37,254 nt of DNA from Bacteroidota bacterium (GTDB lineage Bacteria; Bacteroidota; Bacteroidia; NS11-12g; UBA955). The stretch lies in contig JAIXYV010000013.1 in the NCBI GenBank assembly GCA_027490055.1, positions 1 through 37,254 of the forward strand. Reading direction: 5' to 3'. Shown here in pieces: positions 5,573-28,282 of this stretch. The position numbers were made by a program, and so were the translations under genes. The notes beneath the pieces are model-generated. The model was not told the origin of the DNA, made no database searches, and was given only the letters and a program-made list of their open reading frames with translations. Numbering within the stretch: position 1 is the first letter of the stretch; each line of letters starts with the position of its first letter.

Positions 5573-8116
5573 ATGGAAGCAAAATTTTCTCCGAGAGTCA
5601 AAGAAGTCATACAATTCAGTCGCGAAGAAGCGATTCGTCTTGGACATGATTACATCGGCACCGAACACCTTCTTTTAGGTATCATCCGCGAGGGTGAAGG
5701 CACTGCGCTTACTACCCTTAAAAATCTTGAGATAGATGTTATTCGTCTTAAGAAAACCATAGAAGATACTATTAAAGGTACCGCAACCGGTGTCAGCAAT
5801 CTTGGCAATATCCCTCTCACCAAACAGGCAGAGAAGGCTTTAAAGATTACGTATCTGGAAGCTAAAATATTTAAAACCGAAACAATTGGCACCGAGCATT
5901 TGCTCTTGTCTATTTTAAGAGACGAAGACAATATCGCTTCTCAGGTGCTGGCTCAATACGGTATCAACTACGATTTTTTCAAGCAAACCTTGCTAGACGG
6001 CGGTAGTGGTTCTTACCGTCCGAAAGATACTCCCAGCAATGCGTTTGAAGACGAAGGTGGCGAAGCACCTGAGGACCGCAAAATAGAAGACATTAAAAAG
6101 AAGAATCCAAAATCCAATACCCCTGTTCTGGACAATTTCGGAAGAGATCTAACCAAACTGGGTGAAGAGGGTAAACTGGATCCAATCGTTGGTCGCGAAA
6201 AAGAAATAGAACGTGTGTCTCAAATTCTTTCTCGACGCAAGAAAAACAATCCAATCTTAATAGGTGAACCTGGTGTTGGTAAAACCGCCATTGCAGAAGG
6301 TTTAGCACTGCGCATCATCCAAAGAAAAGTATCAAGAGTATTGTTCAACAAACGTGTTGTTACTTTGGATCTGGCTTCTCTGGTTGCAGGCACCAAATAC
6401 CGCGGTCAGTTCGAAGAAAGAATGAAAGCCATTATGTCTGAACTTGAAAAAGCCAATGATGTTATTTTGTTCATCGACGAGATCCATACCATAGTTGGTG
6501 CCGGTGGCGCAAGCGGAAGCTTAGATGCCAGCAATATGTTTAAACCTGCCCTGGCAAGAGGCGAGGTGCAATGTATTGGTGCCACCACATTAGATGAATA
6601 CCGTCAGTTTATTGAGAAGGACGGCGCCCTTGAAAGACGTTTCCAGATGGTGATGATTGAACCGGCTTCTCCAGAAGAATCTATCGAGATTCTCAACAAC
6701 ATCAAAGAAAAATACGAAGACCACCATCACGTTACTTATACTTCTGAAGCTATTGAAGCTTGTGTGAAATTAAGTAACCGCTATATCACCGACAGAAATC
6801 TGCCAGATAAAGCCATTGATGTTCTGGATGAGGTAGGTGCCCGTGTGCACATCACCAATATCAATGTACCAGATGAAATAGTTGATCTTGAAGCGCAGAT
6901 TGAAGCCATTAAACTTGAAAAAATCGCGGTAGTGAAAAGTCAGAAATACGAAGAAGCTGCGCGATTGAGAGATAAGGAGAAAAACCTGATCAATATGCTG
7001 GATGCTGCCAAACTGAAATGGGAAGAAGAAACTGTCAGCAACCGTTTTGTGGTAACAGAAGAAAATGTGGCTGAAGTAGTTGCCATGATGACAGGTATTC
7101 CGGTTAAACGTATCGGTCAGAGCGAAGGCAAAAAATTACTGACCATGGAGAGCGACCTCAAGCAGCGCGTTATCGGTCAGGATAAAGCTATTGAAAAGTT
7201 AGCTAAAGCGATTCAGAGAACCAGAGCGGGACTGAAAGATCCGAATAAACCAATTGGATCATTTATCTTCCTGGGACCAACAGGCGTGGGTAAAACCGAA
7301 CTTGCTAAAGCCTTAAGCGAGTACATGTTCGACAACAACGATGCGCTTATAAGAATTGACATGAGTGAGTTCATGGAGAAATTTGCGGTAAGTCGTTTGG
7401 TTGGAGCGCCTCCAGGTTACGTTGGATACGAAGAAGGTGGATTGCTTACTGAAAAAGTAAGACGTAAACCATACGCCGTTGTTTTATTCGACGAGGTTGA
7501 AAAAGCCCACCCGGATGTTTTCAATATCATGTTACAGATTCTGGATGAAGGTCATATTACCGATAGCTTAGGCAGAAAGGTAGATTTCAGAAACACGGTC
7601 ATTATCATGACATCCAATATTGGTTCTCGTCAGTTAAAAGATTTCGGTACTGGTGTTGGTTTTGCTACCAGCAATAAAATTTCCAATTCTGATTCTGAAA
7701 GCAAACAGGTTATCGAAAGTGCTTTGAAGAAATTCTTCTCACCTGAGTTCTTAAACAGAGTAGATGATGTTATTGTCTTCAACAGCTTAGAGAAGCCAGA
7801 CATTATCAAAATTCTGGATATTCAGATTAAGAAAATGCTTAAGCGCATCGAAGATCTTGGCTACACTGTAAAGCTGAGTGACGAGGCGAAGGAGTTTATC
7901 GCCGACCATGGTTTCGACAGCAAGTTTGGCGCCCGTCCGCTATACAGAGCTATGCAGAAGTATCTCGAAGATCCACTGGCAGAAGAAATTCTGAAAGGAG
8001 AAATCATTGAGGGCACTTCAGTAACTGTAGAGCTAGACAAAGAAAATAACACTTTAAAAGTCATCAATGGCACGCCAAAGAAAGGCCGAAAGCCAAAGGT
8101 TGATAAGGGTGAATAA
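5573..8116 (+). CDS. clpC: ATP-dependent Clp protease ATP-binding subunit ClpC
   Basis: This is an AAA+ unfoldase that feeds proteins to ClpP. It has the double Clp N-domain (residues 1-145, with the paired '[12 protein letters not shown]' and '[12 protein letters not shown]' repeats). AAA module 1 has Walker A 'GEPGVGKT' with K237. A middle region contains a UVR-like segment '[13 protein letters not shown]', typical of ClpC rather than ClpB. AAA module 2 has Walker A 'GPTGVGKT' with K574, followed by the D2-small C-terminal domain. The length of 847 residues fits ClpC. The tail after the ATPase is basic ('[13 protein letters not shown]'). It has its own promoter-like element upstream and a strong terminator downstream, so it is probably monocistronic. 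A partner clpP, mcsA or mcsB is not in the window. Confidence 0.96.
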
Positions 8117-8165: not shown

Positions 8166-8169
8166 ATTT

Positions 8170-8241
8170 ATTTTGACATATAGACTTTATCTGATTCGAT
8201 GCATTATTTTGACACATAGACTTTATCTAATTCGCCGCATT
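8170..8241 (+). repeat. tandem duplication of the left terminal motif (2 x 36 bases)
   Basis: Bases 8170-8205 and 8206-8241 are two adjacent 36-base copies with four mismatches, each starting ATTTTGACA and ending GCATT. The inner copy (8206-8241) matches the inverted right end at 9876-9905 better than the outer one does. Confidence 0.85.
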
Positions 8242-8250
8242 AACAAGTAG

Positions 8251-8442
8251 ACATAGAACACATTAAGTTTACCTATCCAAATATGTTTCCGTTAGCCTCA
8301 CTTTGTTCGGTGTTTATACTGCTATCAAGTTTTGTACTTTAACATATAGTATTCGTAGCTGATTCATGTTTGTGTTGGTTTTGTAAAACATCACATATAA
8401 ATAATTAATTAAATTTTTTGTAGCCTTCGGACCAGCGGTCCA
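8251..8442 (+). repeat. left repeat unit L1
   Basis: This 192-base unit starts ACATAGAACACATTAAG, has CCTCACTTTGTTCGG in the middle and ends with the hairpin GGACC-AGC-GGTCC (8429-8441). It is nearly identical to the unit that starts exactly 200 bases later. Confidence 0.9.
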
Positions 8443-8450
8443 AGGTAAGG

Positions 8451-8642
8451 ACATAGAACACATTAAGTACATAAATCCAAATATGTTTCCGTTAGCCTCA
8501 CTTTGTTCGGTATTTATACTGCTATCAAGTTTTGTACTTTAACATATAGTATTCGTAGCTTATTCATGTTTGTGTTGGTTTTGTAAAACATCACATATAA
8601 ATAATTAATTAAAATTTTTGTAGCCTTCGGACCAGCGGTCCA
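8451..8642 (+). repeat. left repeat unit L2
   Basis: This is a 192-base direct copy of L1 with only a handful of differences, including the same terminal hairpin at 8629-8641. It is followed by an extra spacer hairpin (8650-8679) that is missing after L1. Confidence 0.9.
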
Positions 8643-8649
8643 TAGCCTG

Positions 8650-8679
8650 CCCCGTATAGAACTTTGTTCTTATACGGGG
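8650..8679. repeat. spacer hairpin between L2 and L3
   Basis: CCCCGTATA (8650-8658) pairs with TATACGGGG (8671-8679), and GAAC (8659-8662) pairs with GTTC (8666-8669) around a TTT loop, leaving one bulged T at 8670. It has no T-tract on either side, so it is not a normal terminator. A related spacer with the same flanks (TACCCC and GGGCAGGCT) lies between the right units at about 9611-9650. Confidence 0.75.
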
Positions 8680-8687
8680 GTAAAAGG

Positions 8688-8830
8688 ACATAGAACACAT
8701 TAAGTAAACATATCCAAACATGTTTCCGTTAGCCTCACTTTGTTCGGTGTTTATACTGCTAACAAGTTTTGTACTTAACATATAGTATTCGTTGCTGATT
8801 CATGTTTGTGCTAGTTTTTATAATACATCA
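8688..8830 (+). repeat. left repeat unit L3, 3' end decayed
   Basis: This copy starts with the same ACATAGAACACATTAAG and keeps close similarity to L1/L2 up to about 8830. It then drifts, and the GGACC hairpin end is missing before the GxxExxY gene. Confidence 0.85.
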
Positions 8831-9018
8831 AGTTTATAACTTTTAATATATAGTAAAGCTCCTGAGAACTCTCTTCTTTTTAGTTGATTTGTTTCTTGAC
8901 AAATTTTATCAGCCCACTAGTGCCAATTCCCTAACAATATTGAATTATAATTTTTAGAAATTGTATTATTTCTTACAGAATGGGGCCAAACGAAATAAAT
9001 TATGTCGCAATTTTGAGT

Positions 9019-9456
9019 ATGACAACCAAAGAAGGACTTGACAAGCTAACTTATCAAATTATTGGAGCAGCCATTGAAGTTCATAAAATCCTGGGAGCTG
9101 GCCTGAATGAAAGCATCTATCATAAATTTTTGATCTTAGAATTCCATAAACGGGGGATTCAAATTGAATCAGAAAAACCAATCTATATCGAAGCTTATGA
9201 AAGACAAAACAAGATTGATTTTAAGGCAGATTTTATTGTTGAAAATTCGATCATCGTGGAGATTAAATCAGTTGAATATTTTACCCAGCTTCATGAAGCA
9301 CAAATACTGAATTACATGAAATTGCTAAAATTACCAAAAGGTATTTTGATCAATTTCAGATGTGCGAATATTTTCTATAGTGGTCAAAAGACATTCGTTA
9401 ATGAACATTACGCCTTGCTACCACAATCTGAATACAATAAACACCACAAATTATAG
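9019..9456 (+). CDS. GxxExxY protein, PD-(D/E)XK-like fold
   Basis: The family name comes from the motif G28-L-N-E31-S-I-Y34, seen here. Family knowledge places GxxExxY proteins in the PDDEXK_3 group, and a matching pattern is visible: D71, then E81-I-K83 on the next strand and Q95 on the following helix. This resembles the nuclease core D...ExK...Q, but activity in this family is not established as far as I know. I chose the ATG at 9019 because the family normally begins with a few residues before 'LTYQIIGAAIEVHK'; an upstream in-frame ATG at 8980 adds 13 unlikely residues. The gene is the only one between inverted repeat arrays. The C-terminal tail after 'GILINF' departs from what I remember as the usual ending. 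Confidence 0.85.
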   Translation: MTTKEGLDKLTYQIIGAAIEVHKILGAGLNESIYHKFLILEFHKRGIQIESEKPIYIEAYERQNKIDFKADFIVENSIIVEIKSVEYFTQLHEAQILNYMKLLKLPKGILINFRCANIFYSGQKTFVNEHYALLPQSEYNKHHKL

Positions 9457-9494
9457 CAGTAAAATATCTAAACCATTTTTTACGAGGGCTTTGG

Positions 9495-9607
9495 AAATCA
9501 CCTGTATACTTTATGTTAAAAAAGGAAACATACAAATAACCAAAAATGTCCGAACAAAGTGAGGCGAACAAATTCATCAAAGAAACACGAGCTTATTGTG
9601 CTCTATA
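9495..9607 (-). repeat. right repeat unit R1 (inverted, partial)
   Basis: About 110 bases are repeated 254 bases further on as R2 with roughly seven differences. In reverse complement it shares CCTCACTTTGTTCGG and the ACATAGAACACA-like end (here slightly altered) with the left units. The part that would carry the GGACC hairpin is absent on the side facing the gene. Confidence 0.8.
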
Positions 9608-9650
9608 TCCTTACCCCAGCAAAAGAGCATAGCACTATGCAGGGCAGGCT

Positions 9651-9863
9651 TGGACCGCGGGTCCGAAGACTACAATTATAGAGTCAAATAATTGTATTGT
9701 GTCGCAATAAACAAGCAATATCAATTTCCTATAAATCCCATACTTAGGAAAACACCTGTATACTTTATGTTAAAAAAGAAAACATTCAAATAACCGAAGA
9801 TGTCCGAACAAAGTGAGGCGAACAAATTCATCAAGGAAACACGAGCTTATTGTGTTCTATGTC
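9651..9863 (-). repeat. right repeat unit R2 (inverted, complete)
   Basis: This runs from the hairpin GGACC-GCG-GGTCC (9652-9664) through TATACTTTATGTTAAA and CCGAACAAAGTGAGGC to TGTGTTCTATGTC. These blocks occur in the same order as in the reverse complement of L1/L2, but the stretches between them have diverged and the unit is about 20 bases longer. Confidence 0.8.
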
Positions 9864-9875
9864 TACTCACTATAT

Positions 9876-9905
9876 GGTCGATTAGGTAATTTCTATGTGT
9901 CAAAA
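9876..9905 (-). repeat. right terminal inverted repeat of the cassette
   Basis: Read on the minus strand this gives TTTTGACACATAGA followed by a diverged TTACCTAATCG, matching 8207-8232 on the plus strand. It ends 22 bases before the stop codon of the cytochrome gene. Confidence 0.7.
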
Positions 9906-9927
9906 ATGCCCCTTAATCCAATTATAA

Positions 9928-10581
9928 TCAATTATTCTGTGCTCCCGCATTCACCCATTTAACAATGGCATTGAGATCGCAGTCAGAAAGTTTGGAAGCA
10001 CTTTTAGGCATTTGAGAAAAACCAGAAGTGTGCTGGATAGAACCAAGGAAACGACCAGTCGCTAAACTGGTTTTGATGCCAGCATAAGTGCTTAAATCGT
10101 GGTTGCCACCAGCGTTACCTGTATTGTGACATCCCACACACCATTTATCCATTAACGGCTTTACACGCGCTGCAAAAGTGTAAACAGATGTGTCGCAGGT
10201 ATTGCAATTAGAACTGTTAGGCGCTCCGCTTTTGATCCAGTTCTTGATGATGGTTTTTTCGAGCTTGGTGAGCTGAGTATGGGATGACGGTGGCATAGAA
10301 CCAGAAGATATTTCTGTATAGGCTTCACTGCTAAAGGGTTTCCCAGCCTCTACTTCTTTCATGATACCATCGTAATTGGTAAAATCAAGTTTCTCTTTAA
10401 AATCAATTGGATTATGACAACCGGCATTGGCACATTTACTGACAAAGATCGGCAGTACATCCTGCTGAAAACAAACATTGGGTGTGGCGACATCGTAGGT
10501 GCAGGAAGACATATAGATGGCTGAGCCTAATAACAGCGACAACACTATGGTATAATACCTTGCAGTTTGATTACTTTTCAT
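9928..10581 (-). CDS. di-heme c-type cytochrome lipoprotein
   Basis: This is a predicted periplasm-facing or surface lipoprotein with two c-type heme domains. The N-terminus is basic, then hydrophobic, ending in a lipobox 'YMSSC' with C27. The first heme motif is the expanded form C50-ANAG-C55-H56 (CX4CH), with 'SGSMPP' (M96) as a likely axial ligand. The second is standard C148-VG-C151-H152 with 'SQMPK' (M191). Domains of this kind in Bacteroidota are usually annotated as planctomycete-type or class I cytochrome c. I chose the ATG at 10581; the in-frame ATG at 10626 would begin 6 bases after the carB terminator hairpin and puts 15 unlikely residues before the signal. Electron-transfer partners are not evident. 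Confidence 0.85.
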   Translation of the reverse strand: MKSNQTARYYTIVLSLLLGSAIYMSSCTYDVATPNVCFQQDVLPIFVSKCANAGCHNPIDFKEKLDFTNYDGIMKEVEAGKPFSSEAYTEISSGSMPPSSHTQLTKLEKTIIKNWIKSGAPNSSNCNTCDTSVYTFAARVKPLMDKWCVGCHNTGNAGGNHDLSTYAGIKTSLATGRFLGSIQHTSGFSQMPKSASKLSDCDLNAIVKWVNAGAQNN

Positions 10582-10631
10582 CGTTTTATACCATGCAAAT
10601 TGTATTCCAAATACCTTATGTTTCAAACAAT

Positions 10632-28269: not shown

Positions 28270-28282
28270 GGACCCGCGGTCC
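28270..28282 (+). repeat. short hairpin GGACC-CGC-GGTCC
   Basis: The stem is identical to that in the repeat units at 8429, 8629 and 9652, and the loop CGC equals that of the right-hand unit read on its other strand. It ends 4 bases from the DUF6029 stop codon. Confidence 0.7.

Follow-up and report, generated by a model that had tools for sequence, protein, structure and literature searches.

A candidate family of mobile repeat elements in several bacterial phyla with a recurrent gene for a predicted RecB/Cas4-like nuclease

Background

RAYT genes are known to pair with repetitive extragenic palindromic (REP) or terminal inverted repeat (TIR) sequences as REPtrons or TIRtrons (PMC3733652), in which one small gene is flanked by an inverted short repeat and the repeat is also dispersed intergenically, often downstream of genes. 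Here we analyse a comparable 1.7-kb cassette in a 37,254-nucleotide (nt) stretch of a Bacteroidota genome (assembly GCA_027490055.1, contig JAIXYV010000013.1; henceforth the window), which is located between clpC (end at 8116) and a cytochrome c-type gene (9928-10626, minus strand). In order, it contains a left end in two tandem copies of 36 nt, three repeat units in direct orientation, a 158-amino-acid (aa) gene of the GxxExxY family, two inverted and diverged units and one inverted right end. It resembles the REPtrons and TIRtrons in these features, and no clear target-site duplication was seen here, but it differs in that it encodes a RecB/Cas4-like PD-(D/E)XK nuclease and not an HUH/Y1 transposase, and in having tandem 9-11-nt words at its ends where those systems have GTAG-tagged hairpins. 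A RAYT/REP or RAYT/TIR pair is its closest working analogue; the cassette is not a member of the RAYT family, because there is no Y1 transposase inside it and the only Y1_Tnp gene of the genome carries other hairpins.

Insertion sequence (IS) elements with derivatives of the miniature inverted-repeat transposable element (MITE) type are similar in combining a gene-bearing copy with terminal inverted repeats and short gene-less copies with the same ends, and in being absent from syntenic sites in relatives, whereas here no known transposase is present, the ends are word arrays and a target-site duplication is not resolved. Cas4/RecB-family nucleases share with the encoded protein the motifs E, D, ExK and QxxxY and probably the fold, together with a sub-threshold match to Cas_Cas4, but the present protein is 158 aa long, its cassette contains neither a helicase nor a CRISPR partner, and it has flanking repeats of its own. 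Finally, the BrickBuilt element of Porphyromonas gingivalis (PMC4596501), another member of Bacteroidota, is likewise intergenic, MITE-like and tandemly repeated internally; in contrast, its tandem unit of 23 nt lies in the middle instead of forming 9-11-nt words at the ends, and its abstract names no nuclease gene.

The evidence presented below suggests that the cassette is probably the gene-bearing copy of a family of mobile repeat elements whose recurrent gene encodes a RecB/Cas4-like nuclease. The gene, its ends and the copies dispersed elsewhere belong to a single family and move as a group.

Inverted repeats flank many GxxExxY genes

GxxExxY genes are common: of 118 genomes sampled from the phylum of the window, 59 have at least one, and a genome may have up to 12. 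Their flanks were compared in a set of relatives, in which 37 of 59 genomes (the source genome included) had a GxxExxY match and 43 of the 75 matches entered the flank test, along with 239 control open reading frames (ORFs) taken from genomes of this set, so not every genome tested contributed controls. Inverted repeats across the gene were recovered at 19 of the 43 GxxExxY loci and at none of the 239 controls, and repeats of any kind at 30 of 43 as against 14 of 239. When only loci flanked on each side by 150 nt or more of non-coding sequence were considered, the corresponding figures for any repeat were 19 of 24 and 7 of 62. In a set of 81 loci, comprising these 43, eight further loci from genome contigs and 30 from the phylum sample, 38 had an upstream flank that scored at least 30 bits against the reverse complement of the gene's own downstream flank, compared to 1.6% of cross pairs; the window's cassette scored 75.2 bits inverted in the flank test. 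As to the check suggested with the original prediction, whether other GxxExxY genes have similar units beside them, such genes have flanking repeats of their own, with sequences that differ by species.

While the flanking repeats vary by species, they have one build, namely short imperfect words at 9-11-nt steps which face inward on both sides (e.g. ACCACAGAG-GACACAGAG). Further examples are TTTAACCACGGATTTCACGGATTACACGGAT in a Chloroflexi metagenome-assembled genome (MAG; L102), GCCCACGAATCTTCACCAATGAAACACGAATG in a member of Phycisphaerales (L107), AACCGCTGATCTTCGCTAATTTTCACTAAT in Methylacidiphilum (L103) and TTTTAACACAGAGGCCGCAAAGGAGGCACAAAGGTCA at a locus whose two ends are 97% identical (L201). 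In a plasmid collection, GxxExxY genes were found with 28-nt arrays on both sides in Bernardetia, with entire units on both sides in Gemmatirosa and with the short ACACGGATTCG on both sides in Treponema; the loci from Persicobacter, a Fusobacteria isolate and Prevotella in the same collection had no arrays that could be called. In Sphingomonas parapaucimobilis (L372, 1492-1920) a co-directional GxxExxY gene sits between fabD and fabG, at distances of 33 and 2 nt, respectively, and has words upstream only.

Word arrays and their pairing with the protein

The shared build was captured as the strict pattern C[AG]CNNA[GT], chained at 8-12-nt steps within 300 nt of the gene; the stem C[AG]CNNAG was used first, and the A[GT] form was fixed only after the alignments of loci L184-L213 had been inspected. 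Inward-facing chains were present on both sides of 28 of the 81 genes and of none of the 239 controls, and on the two single sides of 41 and 36 genes as against 0 and 2 controls. In 67 further loci, not all of them strictly held out (L365, a repeat of L208, was left out), words occurred upstream of 35, downstream of 34 and on both sides of 26, with shuffles of the same flanks giving 1.0% upstream, 1.1% downstream and 0.07% on both sides. The strictly later set consists of the 37 loci with an ORF among L326-L364 (39 were fetched, and L345 and L350 had no ORF), which were obtained after the motif had been fixed and which bring the 81 loci to 118; here words were found on both sides at 9, upstream at 12 and downstream at 12. 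Control regions totalling 397.6 kb contained one array of three or more words.

The words of one locus resemble each other: the left and right word classes, defined by the last base (G or T), agree in 35 of the 37 loci with chains on both sides, and the left and right consensus 7-mers differ at 0.57 positions, versus 1.90 +- 0.16 with permuted partners. Of the 118 proteins, the 64 that carried a word class (the window protein not being among them) were placed in a tree, which required 4 word-class changes as against a mean of 15.0 for shuffled classes, none of 500 shuffles being as low; this tree is based on few columns and has many open forks, and the shuffles show clustering rather than the number of class changes. 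Both word classes are present in seven genomes: the AT copies of five of these (G093, G062, G089, G113 and G028) fall in the AT clade, and those of the other two (G138 and G002) in a group of mixed class on the AG side. Words are thus a property of the element and follow the protein clade, not the genome. This clustering of words with proteins would not be expected of arrays that were simply a feature of the host genome; linked inheritance would account for it, even without recognition. Separately, CGCAGAG-type and CGCGGAT-type pairs coexist within 40 kb in Gemmatirosa (L386), and word classes also coexist in Flavobacterium (L234-L245), where one locus (L243) has CGCAAAG and CGCGGAT words beside a CACATAG unit.

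Gene-less copies and presence-absence at syntenic sites

Copies with the same ends but no gene were found in three groups of genomes. In Flavobacterium, the pattern ACCACATAGNNNCATAG occurs 19 times in the MAG that contains locus L100 (control 0) and 8 times in that of L101 (control 1); the regions read include five complete inverted pairs of 125-143 bp, all from one MAG, with AACCACATAGAAACATAG-type ends, words in the middle and no gene, the other matches being the gene-bearing element in one case and half or tandem units in the rest. In Bacteroides finegoldii the gene-bearing element has the order radA, array, GxxExxY gene, array, gene for a FAD-dependent protein, and its array matches 37 records of the plasmid collection, 16 of them from Bacteroides. 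All 11 loci that were read (10 from B. finegoldii and one from B. ovatus) are inverted pairs without an annotated gene inside, and in 7 of these the start of the array is -2 to 12 nt away from the stop codon of an annotated gene. The Gemmatirosa replicon has 8 gene-less inverted pairs in 40 kb. The same gene-less pair is situated between gmd and the GDP-L-fucose synthase gene in both B. ovatus (L376) and B. finegoldii (L378), and some copies are therefore old enough to be shared by two species.

In two Flavobacterium MAGs the gene-bearing element is inserted between the threonine leader and the aspartokinase gene, and the joined flanks have matches lacking the element in G195 (1-650, 85%), G322 (68-650, 80%), G250 (1-650, 76%) and other genomes of the genus. 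Likewise, 6 of 8 repeat sites have a contiguous empty match in at least one of six Flavobacterium genomes, at roughly 70-87% identity; the remaining two (L234 and L243) have no such match in these six. The genomes with empty sites may possibly have lost the element rather than never gained it. A target-site duplication is unreadable at the Flavobacterium sites because the borders of the empty sites are too diverged; possible short direct repeats at L237 and L249 are inconsistent and are not claimed as such. An apparent MITE at the threonine site of three other genomes (G222, G230 and G337) was also dropped, the extra 76-105 nt having no word array by eye. The Flavobacterium copies are comparable to MITEs in being short, gene-less and dispersed, in having inverted ends and in being absent from some relatives; the Bacteroides and Gemmatirosa copies were seen to share the first four of these features. 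The cassette had originally been considered as a possible non-autonomous mobile element, of which the mobile family is supported, but "non-autonomous" describes the gene-less copies better, the gene-bearing copy being the candidate autonomous form.

Dispersal of the units in the source genome

The repeat unit of the cassette is itself dispersed. Its 18-base core has 20 matches in the source genome with at most one mismatch, of which 4 belong to the cassette and the other 16 are spread over 11 further contigs (reversed control 0), and it has just a single one-mismatch match, in one genome, in the 58 other genomes of the relatives set. The aligned copies have GACATAG-AACACATTAAG words at one side, a middle hairpin CTCGC-TCT-GCGAG, which is degenerate in all five copies in the window, and a third word TTTAACATATAG. 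At the 11 other places for which ORFs were listed the unit is in or beside intergenic DNA, and no common partner gene was noticed among them. A search of the plasmid collection with the window's end unit gave no match.

Of 13 relatives of the same genus that were searched, 10 had a clpC match, and in four of these (G008, G010, G011 and G013) the cytochrome gene follows within about 4 kb. The cassette is missing from these four syntenic intervals, as no GxxExxY gene lies between clpC and the cytochrome gene. The original prediction had proposed a look for empty sites with clpC and the cytochrome gene directly adjacent; this arrangement was not seen, the intervals instead containing one to four other small ORFs, and there was no clean empty site for the window's cassette among those examined. 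The 16 other genomic places of the unit and the absence from four syntenic intervals nevertheless support the view that the cassette is more than a local array.

The GxxExxY protein

The cassette gene is the only GxxExxY gene of its genome. Its product matches TIGR04256 (GxxExxY; E 9.9e-36, 122.6 bits, cut-off 35) and PF13366 (PDDEXK_3; E 7.4e-34, 117 bits, cut-off 22), with a sub-threshold match to the Pfam family Cas_Cas4 (E 6.6e-4, 20.2 bits, cut-off 22.7). The residues E44, D84, E94-x-K96 and Q108xxxY112 are invariant in all nine aligned proteins, and the corresponding active-site signature is satisfied by 111 of the 118 proteins, while in the other seven, on inspection, the sole difference is in the last motif, at its Q or Y. 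An AlphaFold2 model (mean predicted local distance difference test score, pLDDT, 84.3) gave as its top match in a VIA structure comparison the Cas4 protein SSO0001 (4ic1; Z 9.1, root-mean-square deviation 4.1 over 101 residues), which was the sole chain with Z of at least 8. Foldseek returned no match at E <= 0.001 and a sequence search of PDB no match to the protein. A scan of viral contigs detected no relative, which is weak evidence given that only two short peptide patterns were used. An active DNA nuclease of the RecB/Cas4 type is the natural reading of the modelled fold and the motifs, and is predicted here as such; PD-(D/E)XK enzymes of this type work on DNA. In searches of one open-access library the name GxxExxY occurred in two papers and no function was given, nor did any account of such genes together with flanking repeats come up. 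In three genomes of one genus (G084:C9, G112:C1 and G096:C22) the GxxExxY match is contained in an 883-aa open frame, a possible fusion.

Alternative explanations

The above findings can be weighed against other accounts of the gene-repeat association. The gene might be mere cargo, with MITE- or REP-like repeats being moved in trans by another enzyme, such as a Y1 (RAYT-type) transposase, and a GxxExxY gene having become trapped between two such repeats. There are known REP/RAYT and TIR/RAYT systems (PMC3733652), the source genome has one Y1_Tnp gene, and the GGACC hairpins in the units resemble REPs. However, that sole Y1_Tnp gene (L064, G000:C67, 4075-4776) is flanked on both sides by the unrelated hairpin GACACCTTCCAGGTCTTAGACCTGGAAGGTGTC, and a hairpin scan found neither a unit nor a GGACC hairpin within 4 kb of it. 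Moreover, the 11 Bacteroides pairs that were read enclose no annotated gene, and in the survey of GxxExxY loci and control ORFs it is the GxxExxY gene that recurs between arrays across phyla, with a word class tied to the protein. We consider capture of a passenger gene unlikely. Less likely still is that the repeats act in RNA or as regulatory DNA, for example as processing hairpins or terminators (cf. intervening sequences with an ORF), in which case the protein would be a nuclease that processes RNA or DNA and the copies elsewhere would be by-products. This would fit with intergenic copies that often begin 0-12 nt after annotated stop codons (the 7 of 11 Bacteroides loci above), with genes that are often co-directional between two operon genes and with hairpins in the units, but the presence or absence at syntenic sites and the gene-less pairs would require mobility anyway. 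Further, a search of 12 sources at the Rfam gathering threshold found no family save a tmRNA in L013, and RecB/Cas4-type PD-(D/E)XK enzymes act on DNA. An ordinary local array, in which small repeats in repeat-rich intergenic DNA would have built up near a gene gained by horizontal transfer without being functionally tied to it, is the least probable account: units are often tandem and 14 of 239 control genes also have flanking repeats, but none of these controls has inverted repeats across the gene, the control genomes yielded but a single word array, and the word type tracks the protein and not the genome.

Several observations count against a nuclease-bearing mobile family. Outward-facing arrays also occur, at 17 and 14 of the 81 loci on the two sides (controls 3 and 2 of 239), and both-sided arrays are detected by the word regular expression in only 37 of the 118 elements; many loci have no word arrays, e.g. 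L332, L333, L348, L360 and L361 and the plasmid loci L368, L371 and L373. The window's cassette itself scores 0/0 in the strict word test since its words are without the first C of the pattern, GACATAG and AACACATTAAG matching by eye only; its membership in the class accordingly rests on the inverted score in the flank test, the dispersed units and the shared layout. No target-site duplication was resolved, and there is no close empty site for the window. The source genome is a MAG (96.8% complete, 2.4% contamination) with several unit copies at contig ends, so that one or another contig might be foreign. Lastly, co-inheritance of words and protein is expected of any element that moves as a unit and is by itself no proof of recognition.

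Proposed mechanism and implications

A mobile family with a nuclease gene is the reading we favor, and in it the nuclease would recognize the words and move the element. The enzyme, perhaps as a dimer, would bind the word arrays, whose spacing is about one helical turn, and would join the two inverted ends and nick or cut there. Host replication or repair might then place a copy of the element at another intergenic site, often immediately downstream of a stop codon. Gene-less copies would depend on the enzyme in trans, much as MITEs depend on a transposase or REPINs on a RAYT. A more far-reaching proposal, which we advance tentatively as quite possible, is that the GxxExxY proteins are an unrecognized class of mobilizing enzymes: lone RecB/Cas4-like PD-(D/E)XK nucleases in single-gene elements across several phyla, which would recognize helically phased tandem words at inverted ends and move themselves along with MITE-like satellites, words and enzymes coexisting and diversifying as matched pairs within one genome. 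The original prediction had raised a system in which the protein recognizes hairpin-bearing repeats. The indirect evidence that GxxExxY genes elsewhere have their own flanking repeats, with a word class that follows the protein, speaks for a repeat-protein system, but the conserved feature is the short inverted tandem words, the hairpins being variable.

The gene-repeat pairing, which recurs in several bacterial phyla, suggests that a family of mobile elements has been overlooked and that these may use the enzyme to move. As a kind of system this would be IS/MITE-like or REPtron-like; the unexpected part is the enzyme, and nuclease-driven mobilization, if true, would be new in kind. To our knowledge, an element moved by such a nuclease itself would involve a kind of transposition enzyme not known before. 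If the gene and word arrays are one element, a large uncharacterized protein family would gain a function open to testing, and an origin could be assigned to many intergenic repeats of the CACAGAG, CACGGATT and CGCAAAG types that are so far unexplained. Matched pairs of enzyme and words within one genome make recognition directly testable.

Fine structure of the cassette

The features of the cassette, in positions of the whole window, are as follows:

8168-8239, plus strand: left end, two tandem 36-nt copies, TTTTGACA[T/C]ATAGACTTTATCT... (repeat family D3)
8171-8184 (one mismatch) and 8207-8220 (exact), plus strand: 14-mer TTTTGACACATAGA of the left end
8246-8442, plus strand: repeat unit 1, with words GACATAG-AACACATTAAG, a middle GTTAGCCTCAC segment and word TTTAACATATAG
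8429-8441, plus strand: hairpin GGACCAGCGGTCC at the 3' end of unit 1
8450-8642, plus strand: repeat unit 2, 96% identical to unit 1
8629-8641, plus strand: hairpin GGACCAGCGGTCC in unit 2
8644-8679, plus strand: hairpin AGCCTGCCCCGTATAGAAC-TTT-GTTCTTATACGGGG separating units 2 and 3 (inverted repeat I1)
8687-8830, plus strand: matched part of repeat unit 3, 92% over its first 144 nt
8980-9456, plus strand: GxxExxY/PDDEXK_3 gene, 158 aa, RecB/Cas4-like, with E44, D84, E94-x-K96 and Q108xxxY112
9489-9613, minus strand: inverted repeat unit 4, a diverged copy
9652-9664, minus strand: hairpin GGACCCGCGGTCC separating the two inverted units
9743-9867, minus strand: inverted repeat unit 5, 93% identical to unit 4
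9892-9905, minus strand: right end, exact 14-mer TTTTGACACATAGA

Repeat, ORF and profile analyses confirmed the arrangement first proposed for this segment, that is, a symmetric cassette with inverted ends in which one central PD-(D/E)XK-like gene separates three direct units from two that are inverted and diverged, without a recombinase. The identities of 96% and 93% between units apply to the spans 8250-8442 with 8450-8642 and 9489-9609 with 9743-9863, respectively. The doubling of the left end (8168-8203 and 8204-8239) was missing from the earlier list. Unit 3 diverges early and is only 65% identical at full length, and the hairpin at 8644-8679 has a diverged inverted counterpart at 9611-9650. 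The gene at 8980-9456 is the sole ORF of at least 90 aa from clpC to the cytochrome gene; among ORFs of this size the cassette has no recombinase, recognized transposase or Y1/HUH transposase, nor cas1 or any other cas gene as would be expected of a casposon or CRISPR system. Taken by itself, the 14-mer is moderately unexpected in the window, with 3 matches at up to two mismatches versus 0.59 expected, and 1 of 100 shuffles also giving 3. Its status as an inverted end is firm because of a longer inverted pair of 25 nt (I4; 8207-8231 and 9881-9905, 88%) and the genome-wide count of 20 matches at up to one mismatch, versus 6 for the reversed control pattern.

The hairpin GGACCNGCGGTCC that ends the cassette units belongs to a wider family, with 18 copies in the genome (control pattern 0). 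Four of these are in the window, one of them distant from the cassette at 28270-28282, and 14 places are on other contigs. In its context, TATAACCGTC-GGACC..GGTCC-ACGG, it is reminiscent of a REP whose hairpin has an adjacent CGTC motif.

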